In this document: positions 51,019-55,795 of the stretch, one piece after another
Numbering within the stretch: position 1 is the stretch's first letter
How the letters are laid out: the number at the start of each line of letters is the position of its first letter
Assembly: GCF_020172685.1 (NCBI RefSeq)
Contig: NZ_CP083986.1
Coordinates: 2,741,496-2,805,495, forward strand
Length of the DNA stretch: 64,000 nt
Direction of reading: 5' to 3'
From: [Mycobacterium] nativiensis
GTDB lineage: Bacteria > Actinomycetota > Actinomycetes > Mycobacteriales > Mycobacteriaceae
Notes under the pieces: generated by a model
Told to the model about the DNA's origin: nothing
Database searches by the model: none
Seen by the model: only the letters and a program-made list of their open reading frames with translations
Position numbers and translations under genes: made by a program

Positions 51019-51993
51019 ATGTACGCCGTGGAAGTCGCCGCAACCGGCGGGCCCGAAGTGTTGACCTACGTCGATCGCCCGCAGCCCGTCGCCGCCGCGG
51101 GCGAGGTGCTGATCCAGGCCGAAGCGGTCGGGGTCAACTTCATCGACACCTATTTCCGGTCCGGGATCTACCCGGCCGAGCTGCCGTTCGTGGTAGGCAA
51201 CGAAGTCGCGGGCACGGTGGCCCAGGTCGGCGCCGAGGTGACGGGATTCGGCGTGGGCGACCGTGTGGTGACCGCGGCCGCAGCCGGGGCGTACGCGCAA
51301 TACTGCACCGCACCAGCGTCTTTGGTGGCGCCGATCCCCGCCGGCATTGACTCCGCGGTGGCGGCGGCCGCTCTGCTCAAGGGCATGACGGCCCATTATC
51401 TGATCAAGTCGGTGTATCCGGTGCAGCCCGGCGACACGGTGCTGCTGCACGCCGGGGCCGGCGGCGTCGGGCTGATCCTGACGCAGTGGGCCACCGCCCT
51501 TGGCGCTCGGGTGATCACCACGGCGTCGACCCCGGCGAAGGCCGAACTGTCCCGGCGGGCCGGCGCCGTCGAGGTGCTCGACTATCCCGGAGAGGACGCG
51601 GCCGCGTTCGGCGCCCGCATCCGGAAGCTGACCGGCGACGGGGTGGCTGCGGTGTACGACGGAGTGGGCGCGGCCACATTCGACGCCAGCCTGGCCAGCC
51701 TCGCCGTGCGGGGCACGTTGGCGCTGTTCGGCGCGGCCAGCGGACCGGTGCCGCCGCTGGATCCGCAGCGTCTCAACGCCGCGGGTTCGGTGTACCTGAC
51801 GCGGCCCAACCTGGCTCATTTCACCCGGACCGCGCAGGAATTCTCCTGGCGCGCCGGCGAGCTGTTCGATGCGATCGCGGGCGGCTCGATCGAGGTGACC
51901 GTGAGCGGCCGCTATCCGCTGGCCGAAGCGGCCGACGCCCACCGGGATCTGCAGGCCCGCAGAACGACCGGCTCGATCATTTTGGTGCCCTAG
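51019..51993 (+). CDS. qor: Quinone oxidoreductase (zinc-free MDR family)
   Basis: NADPH-dependent enzyme of 324 residues. VGVNFIDTYFRSG, LPFVVGNEVAGTV, HAGAGGVGLILTQWA (cofactor loop) and the C-terminal GSIILVP fit the Qor/zeta-crystallin family; the Cys/His zinc ligands of alcohol dehydrogenases are absent. ATG at 51019 has GGAGATG upstream. It converges on the first PPE gene, overlapping by 4 bp. Confidence 0.92.
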   Translation: MYAVEVAATGGPEVLTYVDRPQPVAAAGEVLIQAEAVGVNFIDTYFRSGIYPAELPFVVGNEVAGTVAQVGAEVTGFGVGDRVVTAAAAGAYAQYCTAPASLVAPIPAGIDSAVAAAALLKGMTAHYLIKSVYPVQPGDTVLLHAGAGGVGLILTQWATALGARVITTASTPAKAELSRRAGAVEVLDYPGEDAAAFGARIRKLTGDGVAAVYDGVGAATFDASLASLAVRGTLALFGAASGPVPPLDPQRLNAAGSVYLTRPNLAHFTRTAQEFSWRAGELFDAIAGGSIEVTVSGRYPLAEAADAHRDLQARRTTGSIILVP

Positions 51994-53528
51994 GGGCAAT
52001 CTCCCGAGCCGGTACCGCGCCAGGTCTCCGGCAGCAGCGGCACCCGGGTTGCGCCGTCGAGCGTGCCGGCCAGCCGGGTCAGCCCCACCGCCGCCACATC
52101 GGGCTTGGCATTGCTTCCGGCGAAGCCCAGCTCCCCCGCGCCGTGATCGGATGCCTCGGCCCCGACCTTGATCACCTCGTGGTCTTGCCGGGCCGCCCGC
52201 CGTCGACGGCGGGTCGCCGAGCGTGTCGCCGCCTGCGCGGCGACCGCGGCCGAATCGGGTTCCGGCGCCTTCTTCTTCGCGCTCGCTGCCGCGCCCATAC
52301 CGGAGCCCGTGCCGACCCGGGGGGTACACCCGGGCCCGCCGCCGACCACGTAGGGATAGGCGAATGCCTGAACGCCGGCCGGTGGCGGGGCCGGCGCCGG
52401 GGACGGTCCGGCGGGTGGGCCGGGCGCCGCGGGCGGTGAAGCTGCTGCAGGCGCCGCCGCGGCGGGGACGCCGGGGGCGCTGCTGACGACCGTCGGCACA
52501 GCCGGTGCCGACAGCGGCACGGGCGCCGCCGCGACCACGGGTTCGGGCACGGCCAGTCCCGCCAGCCCACCGAGTCCGCCCAACGCACCGGCGGGAGCCG
52601 CCACCGCGCCGGCGGCCGCCACCAGCAACGGGGCCGACTGGCTCAGCGTGGTGGCCAACTGCGCCACGTGGGTCGGCCAGTCGAACAGGGCTACGGCGAG
52701 CAGGTATTGAAGCGCGGCGGTCGGATTCTGGGAGCCGGAGAATTGGAAGTTCTCCAGCAGTTCCAGCGCTCGGGCGAGGTACCAGATCGGCTCGTTGGCG
52801 TTCGCGTAGTAGTCGTAAACGTGCCCGTTGAGGGTCCCGCCGGTCGGATCCCAGTTGATCCCGACGTTCTTGAGCAGCTGCGCGATCGACAGATCCAGCG
52901 GGCTGCCGCCCTTCGGGTCGTGGGCGACCAGGCTGTCGGAGATGCCCAGCTTGTCCAGGAAGTCGTGAAGCCAATTGGTCGACTGGCCCTGATCGGCCGC
53001 GATCTTCGGGGCTGCGGCGGTGTGTGGGGCCGAGGCCACCGCCGCACCCGCCACCGCCTCATAGGTCGCCATCGTCGTGGCCGCCTGCACCCACATCCGC
53101 GCATAGTCAGCCTCATTGACCGCAATCGGAACCGTATTGATCCCAAAGAAATTGGTCGCCACCAACACCGCATGCACCGCATGATTAGCCGCCAACTCCG
53201 GCAATGTCGGCATCGCCGCCAACGCACTCACATACGCCGACGCCGCCACCTCACACTGCACCGCGGCTGCGGCGCTGTCGGCCTCCGCCGCCGCCAACCA
53301 CCCCAGATACGGCCCGTGCGCGGCCGCATACGAATCGGCGCCGGTACCGCGCCATTGTCCCGACCCGACAGCCCCGATCACGGCAGCCAGTTCCTGTGCC
53401 ACCGCCGCGTACTCACCGCTCAACGACGACCACGCCCCCGCCGCCGCCAACAGTGGCCCCGGGCCCGGCCCAGCGGCCAGCAACGCCGAATGCACCTCCG
53501 GCGGCGAGCCCATCCAGACAGCTGGCAC
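51990..53528 (-). CDS. PPE family protein, PPE-PPW subgroup (copy 1)
   Basis: Protein of 512 residues. The N-terminal 180 residues form the PPE domain (SPPEVHSALL, WRG as WxG motif, ANHAVHAVLVATNFFGINT, NEADYARMWVQAA). A central region (about 200-310) contains VGINWDPTGGTLNG and FDWPTHVAQLA. A Pro/Ala-rich linker (about 320-410) leads to a basic stretch (TRRRRRAARQ) and the C-terminal LTRLAGTLDGATRVPLLPETW, the PxxPxxW signature of PPE-PPW. GTG at 53528 lies 8 nt after TAAACT. It lacks the His cluster of its neighbour. PPE proteins are surface or secreted proteins of type VII systems. Confidence 0.95.
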   Translation of the reverse strand: MPAVWMGSPPEVHSALLAAGPGPGPLLAAAGAWSSLSGEYAAVAQELAAVIGAVGSGQWRGTGADSYAAAHGPYLGWLAAAEADSAAAAVQCEVAASAYVSALAAMPTLPELAANHAVHAVLVATNFFGINTVPIAVNEADYARMWVQAATTMATYEAVAGAAVASAPHTAAAPKIAADQGQSTNWLHDFLDKLGISDSLVAHDPKGGSPLDLSIAQLLKNVGINWDPTGGTLNGHVYDYYANANEPIWYLARALELLENFQFSGSQNPTAALQYLLAVALFDWPTHVAQLATTLSQSAPLLVAAAGAVAAPAGALGGLGGLAGLAVPEPVVAAAPVPLSAPAVPTVVSSAPGVPAAAAPAAASPPAAPGPPAGPSPAPAPPPAGVQAFAYPYVVGGGPGCTPRVGTGSGMGAAASAKKKAPEPDSAAVAAQAATRSATRRRRRAARQDHEVIKVGAEASDHGAGELGFAGSNAKPDVAAVGLTRLAGTLDGATRVPLLPETWRGTGSGDCP

Positions 53529-53554: not shown

Positions 53555-53586
53555 ACTAATAAGTTCGGTAGGCCGAACTTATTAGT
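53555..53586. promoter_or_regulatory. Perfect 14-bp inverted repeat between the two PPE genes
   Basis: ACTAATAAGTTCGG (53555-53568) and CCGAACTTATTAGT (53573-53586) are perfect arms with a 4-bp centre. It is AT-rich, starts one base after the stop of PPE copy 2 and overlaps the -35 region of PPE copy 1. It may be an operator, a terminator, or both. Confidence 0.7.
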
Positions 53587-53587
53587 G

Positions 53588-55150
53588 TCAGCCCGCCTCG
53601 TCGGCTCCCCAACTGCCCGGCATCATCGGCTCCTTCGGCTCGGCGCCGAACGCATTTCCGGAAAGTCGGGTCAGCCCCGTCGCGGCAACCCGCTCCTTGG
53701 GCGCGTTGCCGGAGAACCCCAATGGGCCGATGCCCCGGTCGGCGGCCAGCACCGCCGCGTCGTCCGGCACCCGCCAGTCCGGATCGACCCCCACACCGAT
53801 CTTCATGAATTCATCGGCGTGCTCATGCTTGGCGGCACGGCGACGGCGCTGCGCCCGCTTCTGGTCACGAGCGGCTTCCCGGGCGGCTGCCGCCGCCGCA
53901 GCGCTGTCGGGCTCGCTGGCTTTGCGCGCCGCGCGGGCGGCCACCGCCATTCCCGTGCCCGAACCGATCCCGGGCCCGCCGATCAGGTACGGCGGAACGA
54001 ACGTCGCCCCGGCTGCTGCCGGAGGGGCGGCCGCCGCCGGAGCAGGGCCGGCGGCCGCGCTCGCCGGTGCGGGCGGCGCCGGAGCCGACGCCGGGACCGA
54101 TCCCGAGACGGCCGGTGCGGGCGGGGCGGTCCCCAGCGCAGGCAGCGCATGCGGGACGGGTCCGGCCGGCGGCGCAAGGATCGGCGCCTGCGGTGCGGCC
54201 AGTCCCCCGAGGCCCGCCAGCCCGGCCAACGATCCGGCCGGCGCCAGCGCCGCTCCCAGCGCCAGCGCCACCAGCTGCGGGGACTGACCCAGCCAGGTGG
54301 CGATCTCGGCGATGTGCGTGGGCCAGTCGAAGATCGCCAGTTGAACCAGATACTGGAAGGCGGCACCCGGGTTGGTCAGCAGCTGGTTGCCGAAGTGCTG
54401 GAAATCCTGGCTGAACTCCAGCGCCCGCACCACCCAATACATCAGGTCGCCCGGATTGGTGTACGCGTCGTACCCGATGCCGTTGACGGTGCCCTCCGTC
54501 GGATCCCAGTCGACCCGCCCGCCGGTCAGCGAGCGCAACCACCGCGCAACCTGCTCGTCCCATTCACTGGCCTCGCCGCCGTGCTCGTGCTCATGGTCGT
54601 GACCGGGCGCCTCGAGGATCTGCGGGGCGGGGCCGGTGTGCGGGGCCGAGGCCACCGCCGCACCCGCGACCCCCTCATAGGTCGCCATCGTCGTGGCCGC
54701 CTGCACCCACATCCGCGCATAGTCAGCCTCATTGACCGCAATCGGAACCGTATTGATCCCAAAGAAATTGGTCGCCACCAACACCGCATGCACCGCATGA
54801 TTGGCCGCCAGCTCCGGCAACGTCGGCATCGCCGCCAACGCACTCACATACGCCGACGCCGCCGTGTCGCACTGCGCTGCCGCCGTGACGCTGTCGGCTC
54901 CGGCCCGGGTCAGCCAGGTCAGGTAGGGCGCATGGGCGGCCACATAGGTCTCGGCGCTCGGCCCCTGCCACGCCCCGGCCTGTACGGCCCCCAAGATCGA
55001 CATCAGCTCGTCAGCGGCCGCGGTGTACTCGGCGCCGAGCTTCGACCATGCCGCGGCGGACGCCAGCAGCGGGCCAGGGCCCCCTCCGGAGCTCAACAAC
55101 GCCGAATGCACCTCCGGCGGCGACGCCATCCAGGCGCCGGCCAGAGTCAC
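53588..55150 (-). CDS. PPE family protein, PPE-PPW subgroup (copy 2), with His cluster
   Basis: Protein of 520 residues, a tandem paralogue of copy 1. The PPE domain (MASPPEVHSALL, WQG, the same ANHAVHAVLVATNFFGINT block) is followed at residues 184-190 by HDHEHEH and an acidic stretch, a metal-binding-like cluster absent in copy 1. The middle has VDWDPTEGTVNGIGY and FDWPTHIAEIA; the tail has a Pro/Ala linker, a basic stretch and LTRLSGNAFGAEPKEPMMPGSW (PPW motif). GTG at 55150 is used; ATG at 55129 is possible. A Zur-box-like palindrome lies 32 bp upstream. PPE-PPW proteins are linked to metal uptake in several cases. Confidence 0.95.
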   Translation of the reverse strand: MTLAGAWMASPPEVHSALLSSGGGPGPLLASAAAWSKLGAEYTAAADELMSILGAVQAGAWQGPSAETYVAAHAPYLTWLTRAGADSVTAAAQCDTAASAYVSALAAMPTLPELAANHAVHAVLVATNFFGINTVPIAVNEADYARMWVQAATTMATYEGVAGAAVASAPHTGPAPQILEAPGHDHEHEHGGEASEWDEQVARWLRSLTGGRVDWDPTEGTVNGIGYDAYTNPGDLMYWVVRALEFSQDFQHFGNQLLTNPGAAFQYLVQLAIFDWPTHIAEIATWLGQSPQLVALALGAALAPAGSLAGLAGLGGLAAPQAPILAPPAGPVPHALPALGTAPPAPAVSGSVPASAPAPPAPASAAAGPAPAAAAPPAAAGATFVPPYLIGGPGIGSGTGMAVAARAARKASEPDSAAAAAAAREAARDQKRAQRRRRAAKHEHADEFMKIGVGVDPDWRVPDDAAVLAADRGIGPLGFSGNAPKERVAATGLTRLSGNAFGAEPKEPMMPGSWGADEAG

Positions 55151-55181
55151 GGCAGGCCCCGCACGGCCATACCCGACGTGT

Positions 55182-55201
55182 TGAACATGATTTTCATTAT
55201 C
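55182..55201 (-). promoter_or_regulatory. Zur-box-like palindrome overlapping a -10 hexamer, before PPE copy 2
   Basis: On the minus strand TGAAAATCATGTTCA (55196-55182) differs by one base from a perfect TGAAAATnATTTTCA palindrome, the type bound by mycobacterial Zur (FurB). GATAAT (55201-55196) just upstream looks like the -10 of PPE copy 2, so a bound repressor would cover the start of transcription. Confidence 0.6.
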
Positions 55202-55303: not shown

Positions 55304-55795
55304 ATGCCGATTCCGCAGTTCATCGTCGACCTCCGCGCCCACATCGGCCACGACCCGCTGTGGCTGATCGGCGTGACCGCGGTGGTGATCCGCGGCGATG
55401 AGGTGCTGCTTGTCGAACGCGCCGACAACGGCGTCTGGGCGCCGGTGACCGGGATCGTCGACCCCGGCGAGGAACCCGCCGATGCCGCAGCGCGCGAAGT
55501 CGCCGAGGAGACCGGCGTCACCGCGGTGCCCGAACGGCTGGCCTGGGTGCACACCACCGCACCCGTGGTGCATGTCAACGGCGATCATGCGCAGTACCTC
55601 GACCACGTCTTCGTCATGCGGTGGGTGGCCGGCGAACCCCACCCGGCCGACGATGAGAGCACCGACGCGCGCTGGTACGGGCTGGACTCCTTGCCCGACA
55701 TGCCCGAACGGATGCGGACGCGCATCACCGCAGCGCTAAGCGCGGGTCCCCAAACCCTGTTCGAGTGGAACGGCGGGTCCCAGAAACTGACCTAG
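55304..55795 (+). CDS. Nudix hydrolase
   Basis: Protein of 163 residues. The Nudix box [20 protein letters not shown], then TGV, fits GX5EX7REUXEEXGU, so it is an active-type pyrophosphohydrolase; the substrate (NADH, (d)NTP or sugar nucleotide) cannot be told. ATG at 55304 is used; the longer frame upstream crosses the PPE gene. It diverges from PPE copy 2 across 153 bp and converges on ctaB with 4 bp overlap. Confidence 0.9.

Follow-up and report, generated by a model that had tools for sequence, protein, structure and literature searches.

A PPE-PPW gene of Mycolicibacter with a histidine-rich loop behind a candidate Zur box: a possible route for zinc capture at the cell surface

In this work we have used sequence and structure comparisons to ask whether a PPE-PPW gene of [Mycobacterium] nativiensis may be switched on by zinc shortage, and whether its product could capture zinc at the cell surface. 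To our knowledge, the mechanism by which zinc passes the mycobacterial outer membrane is open. The window, that is, the whole stretch of 64,000 nucleotides that was analysed, is part of a 5.28-Mb single-contig genome and bears two PPE-PPW genes in tandem on the minus strand, with copy 2 upstream. We conclude that sequence comparison gives good support to the prediction that Zur controls copy 2, while metal binding and uptake by its product are put forward as a reasonable hypothesis. The features discussed are listed here in window positions.

55304-55795 (+): Nudix-hydrolase-like gene, divergent, 108 nt from the box; Nudix models matched, each below its curated cut-off
55196-55201 (-): -10-like hexamer GATAAT, with one base in common with the box
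55182-55196 (-): candidate Zur box TGAAAATCATGTTCA, a 15-bp palindrome, 32.85 bits with a matrix of 19 published boxes
55147-55188 (-): predicted short leader frame of 13 codons, its ATG 7 nt after the -10-like hexamer
53588-55150 (-): PPE-PPW gene copy 2, 520 aa, with PF00823 and PF18878 above cut-off
54644-55132 (-): PPE domain of copy 2, residues 7-169 (PF00823), a helical bundle in the model
54581-54601 (-): His cluster HDHEHEH, residues 184-190, in a loop with pLDDT below 50 at residues 184-191
54236-54565 (-): second helical part in the AlphaFold2 model, about residues 196-305
53609-53746 (-): PPE-PPW C-terminal region, residues 469-514 (PF18878)
53555-53586 (-): perfect 14-bp inverted repeat with a 4-nt loop, between the PPE copies, from the fold
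51990-53528 (-): PPE-PPW gene copy 1, 512 aa, without box or His cluster in the domain and box scans

A first, sequence-only reading of the locus had proposed a Zur-box-like palindrome and a GATAAT hexamer before copy 2, and both are found there, the box ending 31 nt from the GTG start at 55150. The box sequence TGAAAATCATGTTCA, with up to three mismatches allowed, has no other place in the window (0.17 expected from shuffles). The gene behind it belongs to the PPE family (PF00823, E 1.9e-60, 204 bits against a cut-off of 26) and to its PPE-PPW branch (PF18878, E 1.3e-13, 51.2 bits against a cut-off of 27). Between hexamer and gene lies the leader frame, whose stop codon TGA and the PPE start codon overlap as GTGA in all five Mycolicibacter promoters compared (the window, L077, L078, L082 and L122), with lengths of 13, 13, 13, 12 and 8 codons. 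The spacing of its ATG to the -10-like hexamer is that of a leaderless transcript. This frame may couple translation to Zur-controlled transcription, or may be due to chance, because its first codons fall within the box.

How much does the box resemble known Zur boxes? A symmetric 21-bp matrix was derived from the 19 Mycobacterium avium paratuberculosis boxes of Table 2 in PMC4298942, which that source describes as predicted by motif search before zinc-responsive genes, one of them being tested by mutation. Scoring with such a matrix, the check suggested at the outset, gave 32.85 bits for the window site, inside the range of the 19 boxes themselves (26.3-43.7), and 4.3 bits for the next best place of the window. 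In the whole genome, TGAAAATSATNTTCA occurs within one mismatch at three places and its reversed control pattern at none, and TGAAAATNATTTTCA occurs within three mismatches at 30 places against three for the control. When all 30 places were scored, six reached 32.3-39.1 bits, followed by 23.3, 21.0, 16.4 and lower values. Two of these six lie between an MRF-type GTPase gene and an alternative ribosomal protein region, two before eccA copies (at 0.28 and 0.34 Mb, one identified by a model scan and the other by likeness) and two before PPE genes, namely the window gene at 2.79 Mb and a second PPE-PPW gene at 4613308. From their sequences, we take the frames of the ribosomal region to be L33-, S14- and S18-like. 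In M. avium paratuberculosis, ribosomal, CobW-like and ESX-3 genes are described as zinc-responsive (PMC4298942).

The genome also bears a FUR-family gene after an ArsR/SmtB-type gene; it scores 45.7 bits with the NCBIfam Zur model, below the 167 bits that the model demands. We presume that it is Zur, from the gene order and from the known smtB-zur arrangement. A 23.3-bit Zur-like site is seen at the start of the ArsR/SmtB-type gene (G000:C1:1899428-1899442; L006, L058), and may stand for autoregulation or for chance; another Zur-like site, of 21.0 bits, is at L007. Exact Nextera adapter sequence and masked runs are present in the assembly (L002, L015, L028, L050, L057, L058, L069, L071 and L076), with no adapters in the window. 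The eccA site at L050 shares its stretch with five adapter copies, so that this eccA copy may be an assembly product, and we do not count a second ESX-3 copy as established. The genes of the adapter regions, one eccA copy among them, need caution.

It had been proposed that both PPE-PPW copies are repressed in the presence of zinc. For copy 2 this holds as a prediction, on the strength of the score, the conservation of the box and the sites at the MRF/ribosomal and eccA genes. These grounds do not extend to copy 1, which has no box of its own (nothing in the 500 nt ahead of its PPE domain scores above -6.4 bits) and is separated from copy 2 by a strong hairpin, although it may be read from the boxed promoter. 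The 56-nt stretch with the inverted repeat folds at -22.1 kcal/mol (z -4.27), and the mismatch-free arm occurs only here in the genome. No T run follows the hairpin, which is a possible terminator or attenuator between the copies. The tandem order of the two genes is kept in L077 and L078, and the arm sequence was not found in either.

The box was expected to recur in relatives, and it does. It is identical or has one change in four Mycolicibacter relatives and is similar in a fifth, with GATAAT kept in the four and GAGAAT in the fifth; in an alignment of the six promoters, box and -10-like hexamer stay together as a conserved block, with a variable stretch on one side of it and the start codon on the other. 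The wider set of relatives comes from a protein-based search with six patterns, GHDHEHEH included, and is enriched for His clusters, so it was used for box presence and for a tree, and not for cluster rates. Among the matches listed, 47 of 79 relatives are boxed, and no row scores between 6.0 and 20.8 bits. The nearest named relatives of copy 2 among these matches are those of M. kumamotonensis (77%, best segment) and Mycolicibacter sp. MYC098 (91%). In MYC098 (L078, around 3375) the frame of the copy 2 orthologue is broken inside the PPE domain, and box and His cluster are present. Fourteen plasmid records gave partial matches, none of them covering 80% of the query.

The second trait of copy 2 is the HDHEHEH cluster, present at the residues where it had been read, and missing from the tandem paralogue as described: copy 1 has at most two His in 12 residues. 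At least four His in seven residues arose in 57 of 20000 shuffles of the copy 2 protein. Among the 49 PPE-domain genes of the genome, only two have at least four His in 12 residues (around positions 184 and 186 of the proteins), and the same two are the only ones boxed within 500 nt before the domain; the count includes a few genes that extend into masked or adapter stretches. Is this link between box and cluster also found outside this genome? PPE-PPW matches were collected from an unselected sample of 18 other genomes of the genus, 15 of which had matches (84 rows, including eight from the window's own genome). From these 15 genomes 68 PPE-PPW genes were taken, eight with short frames being left out, and 64 were scored: 57 with the start motif and seven without it, the remaining four lacking either upstream sequence or a PPE domain that could be recognised. 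Boxes that score 20 bits or more precede 12 of the 64 genes, and one further gene has a site of 18.9 bits. Clusters of at least four His after the PPE domain are found in six of the 64, all six among the 12 boxed genes (Fisher p 1.2e-5 for the 64 genes and 1.1e-4 for the 57 alone, kinship ignored). Zur control does not need the cluster, since the other six of the 12 boxed genes do not have it, and of the two traits it is the box that is kept more widely.

A second sample was built on the His-run DNA pattern CAYGANCAYGANCAYGANCAY, which was found in 219 of 297 genomes. Of 30 such loci, one per genome, four are PPE genes by motif, and all four are boxed, at 23.7-29.2 bits. Together with the six clusters of the unselected sample, they bear out the expected company of box and cluster beyond this genome. 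At 25 of the other 26 loci nothing within 3 kb exceeds 9 bits, and L179 has a place of 23.6 bits. This last locus (G279, around 1501) encodes a very long His/Asp/Gly-rich non-PPE frame with a C-terminal hydrophobic stretch, and its Zur-like site is 826 nt before the His run. Two cases run counter to the rule: HRDHQHR, with three His in 12 residues, occurs in a boxless PPE-PPW protein of the genome and in its relative L238, and L095 has a cluster and no box, in a sequence that begins 329 nt upstream.

In which order were these traits acquired? A tree of 63 PPE-PPW proteins among the matches listed was built without the loop columns, leaving out rows that were shorter than 400 aa, contained X or lacked the start motif. 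On this tree the state of the box needs four changes, against about 21 in shuffles. With L095 excluded, all 11 rows with at least four His are boxed, 31 of 62 rows are boxed overall, and the cluster needs five changes. The tree-corrected test of cluster against box was not significant: in five independent pairs, the box changed the same way 1.8 times on average and the opposite way never, and only about two of the five pairs are informative, which gives this test low power. A zinc switch that came first, followed by His loops gained more than once at the same place, would fit these data, while not being significant on the tree.

PPE genes under Zur control are already known. In M. tuberculosis, PPE3 (Rv0280) is a PPE protein described as Zur-regulated (PMC13102306, PMC13284343), a likeness that copy 2 shares through its candidate Zur box, and its phenotype concerns growth on lactate and other nutrients, with ESX-5 as the proposed exporter (PMC13102306). 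The window gene does not hold the place of PPE3, since in this genome a boxless PPE-PPW gene at 272941 stands upstream of the ESX-3 genes. PPE3 adjoins ESX-3 in M. tuberculosis, a place beside ESX-3 that the window gene lacks. MAP3737 and MAP3765 of M. avium paratuberculosis are, like copy 2, PPE genes behind predicted Zur boxes, and are described as responding to zinc chelation with strong induction (PMC4298942, Tables 1 and 2); these two sit in a large zinc island. We found no paper on His-rich Zur-controlled PPE proteins in searches of the open-access literature on His-rich or zinc-linked PPEs; the subclass in which a His loop is tied to the box was not found in print in these searches.

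The AlphaFold2 model of copy 2 (43 rows, mean pLDDT 67) is confident only at about residues 11-180 and 191-300. It places HDHEHEH in a loop, predicted to be flexible, that joins the PPE bundle to the second helical part, beyond which it has disorder and one helix at residues 415-442. Matches to solved structures cover the PPE domain only. By sequence profile the nearest solved PPE domain is PPE4 of ESX-3 (6uuj, 6vhr; E 4.3e-99, against 3.1e-29 for the next), and PPE4 is also the top match of Foldseek, whereas VIA-align ranks PPE15 (Z 17.0) above PPE4 (Z 15.0). The window gene, unlike PPE4, lies outside any ESX-3 locus. A calcium transporter made up of PE15 and PPE20 has been described, PPE20 being another PPE-PPW protein with a link to ESX-3 (PMC9731449), so that the family is shared and the metal differs. 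With ZrgA and other His-rich zinc-uptake proteins copy 2 has an acidic His run in common, although the fold here is that of a PPE; the second His-cluster PPE matches ZrgA below cut-off (19.9 against 27.4 bits), and this resemblance is likely one of composition only.

We propose, as the reading that is on balance probable, that zinc shortage lifts the repression of an exported PPE-PPW protein, which would use its flexible His loop to capture zinc at the surface. When zinc is sufficient, Zur on the box beside the -10 would block transcription of copy 2; when zinc is short, Zur would be released, here and at the promoters of eccA (ESX-3 type) and of the alternative ribosomal proteins. The protein would then be exported by a type VII system, ESX-3 being our first guess, and would stay in or on the outer membrane, where the HDHEHEH loop would bind zinc and hand it to a pore or a partner. 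PPE-PPW proteins are thought to depend on ESX-3 (PMC7028111), and as one of the eccA genes here also follows a box, the same signal could turn on the exporter and the protein it exports. What the DNA itself gives is the box, its conservation, the genes at which such sites stand in this genome and the co-occurrence of box and cluster; from these we infer Zur binding, the export route, the location, zinc binding and import.

A different cargo is a possibility that we consider doubtful, and still the most serious of the alternatives: copy 2 may be regulated by Zur and yet move a carbon source, an anion or a metallophore instead of free zinc, the His loop being a modifier, a gate or without role. 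The reported need of the Zur-regulated PPE3 for growth on lactate (PMC13102306) speaks for it, as do the reduced fitness of ppe3 mutants with mycobactin (PMC7058343) and the description of PPE1 as acting in copper starvation with a chalkophore and as dispensable under low zinc (PMC9600254). It leaves unexplained why His clusters fall on boxed genes, in six of six cases in the unselected sample and four of four in the His-run sample.

Less probable, in our judgement, is that the protein serves as a zinc store, buffer or decoy: produced under zinc shortage, it would hold zinc at the surface or in the periplasm with no transport. The composition of the loop and the control by Zur would fit such a role equally well, and the model does not reveal a pore, while several PPE proteins have been described as outer-membrane transporters (PMC9731449). 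We regard it as most improbable that a random palindrome meets an ordinary repeat expansion of GC-rich codons: the His-run pattern is indeed widespread and mostly outside PPE genes (26 of 30 loci), but the window site stands at 32.9 against 4.3 bits for the next place, in a conserved promoter, and boxed relatives are set apart by the empty interval in the scores. Just as remote is a box that serves the Nudix-like gene at 55304, either alone or together with the PPE gene; the two could in principle share it, given that the box is nearly symmetric, that it lies 108 nt before that gene and that the aligned relatives retain the Nudix-like start next to the PPE promoter, but the box touches the -10-like hexamer on the PPE strand and precedes PPE genes in the 47 boxed loci among the matches listed.

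If copy 2 does capture zinc, what other route for zinc does the organism have? Searches for ABC-3 (PF00950), ZnuA (PF01297) and ZIP (PF02535) gave no match in the window's genome, and found ABC-3 in 13, ZnuA in 11 and ZIP in eight of 14 control genomes. In the unselected sample, 17 of 18 genomes have ABC-3, and the one that lacks it, G016, has a boxed His-cluster PPE; ABC-3 is also missing from two of four further genomes, which were included for their His-run PPE. Loss of the permease is not a condition for the cluster, since ABC-3 and a boxed His-cluster PPE are found together in G006, G010, G015, G020, G021, G092 and G156. In nine named genomes searched, ABC-3 was absent from all seven Mycolicibacter (the genomes of L077, L078, L082, L117, L125, L129 and L134) and from M. 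celatum, while M. gordonae has it. As these genomes are largely one lineage, the absence is a suggestion and not a correlation.

Zur-controlled PPE-PPW proteins with repeatedly gained His loops might be a class of their own, catching zinc at the outer membrane or serving there as zinc pores, and this type VII-dependent route might have become the chief means of zinc import in Mycolicibacter; we offer this wider idea tentatively, as one that may well prove wrong. Mycolicibacter, where ABC-3 (ZnuB-type) permeases were not found in the genomes searched, would be a good setting in which to see a role in zinc uptake. The coupling of a Zur-type site with a His loop, seen here among surface proteins of one family, points to a candidate for the passage of zinc across the mycobacterial outer membrane, and with it a direct test.
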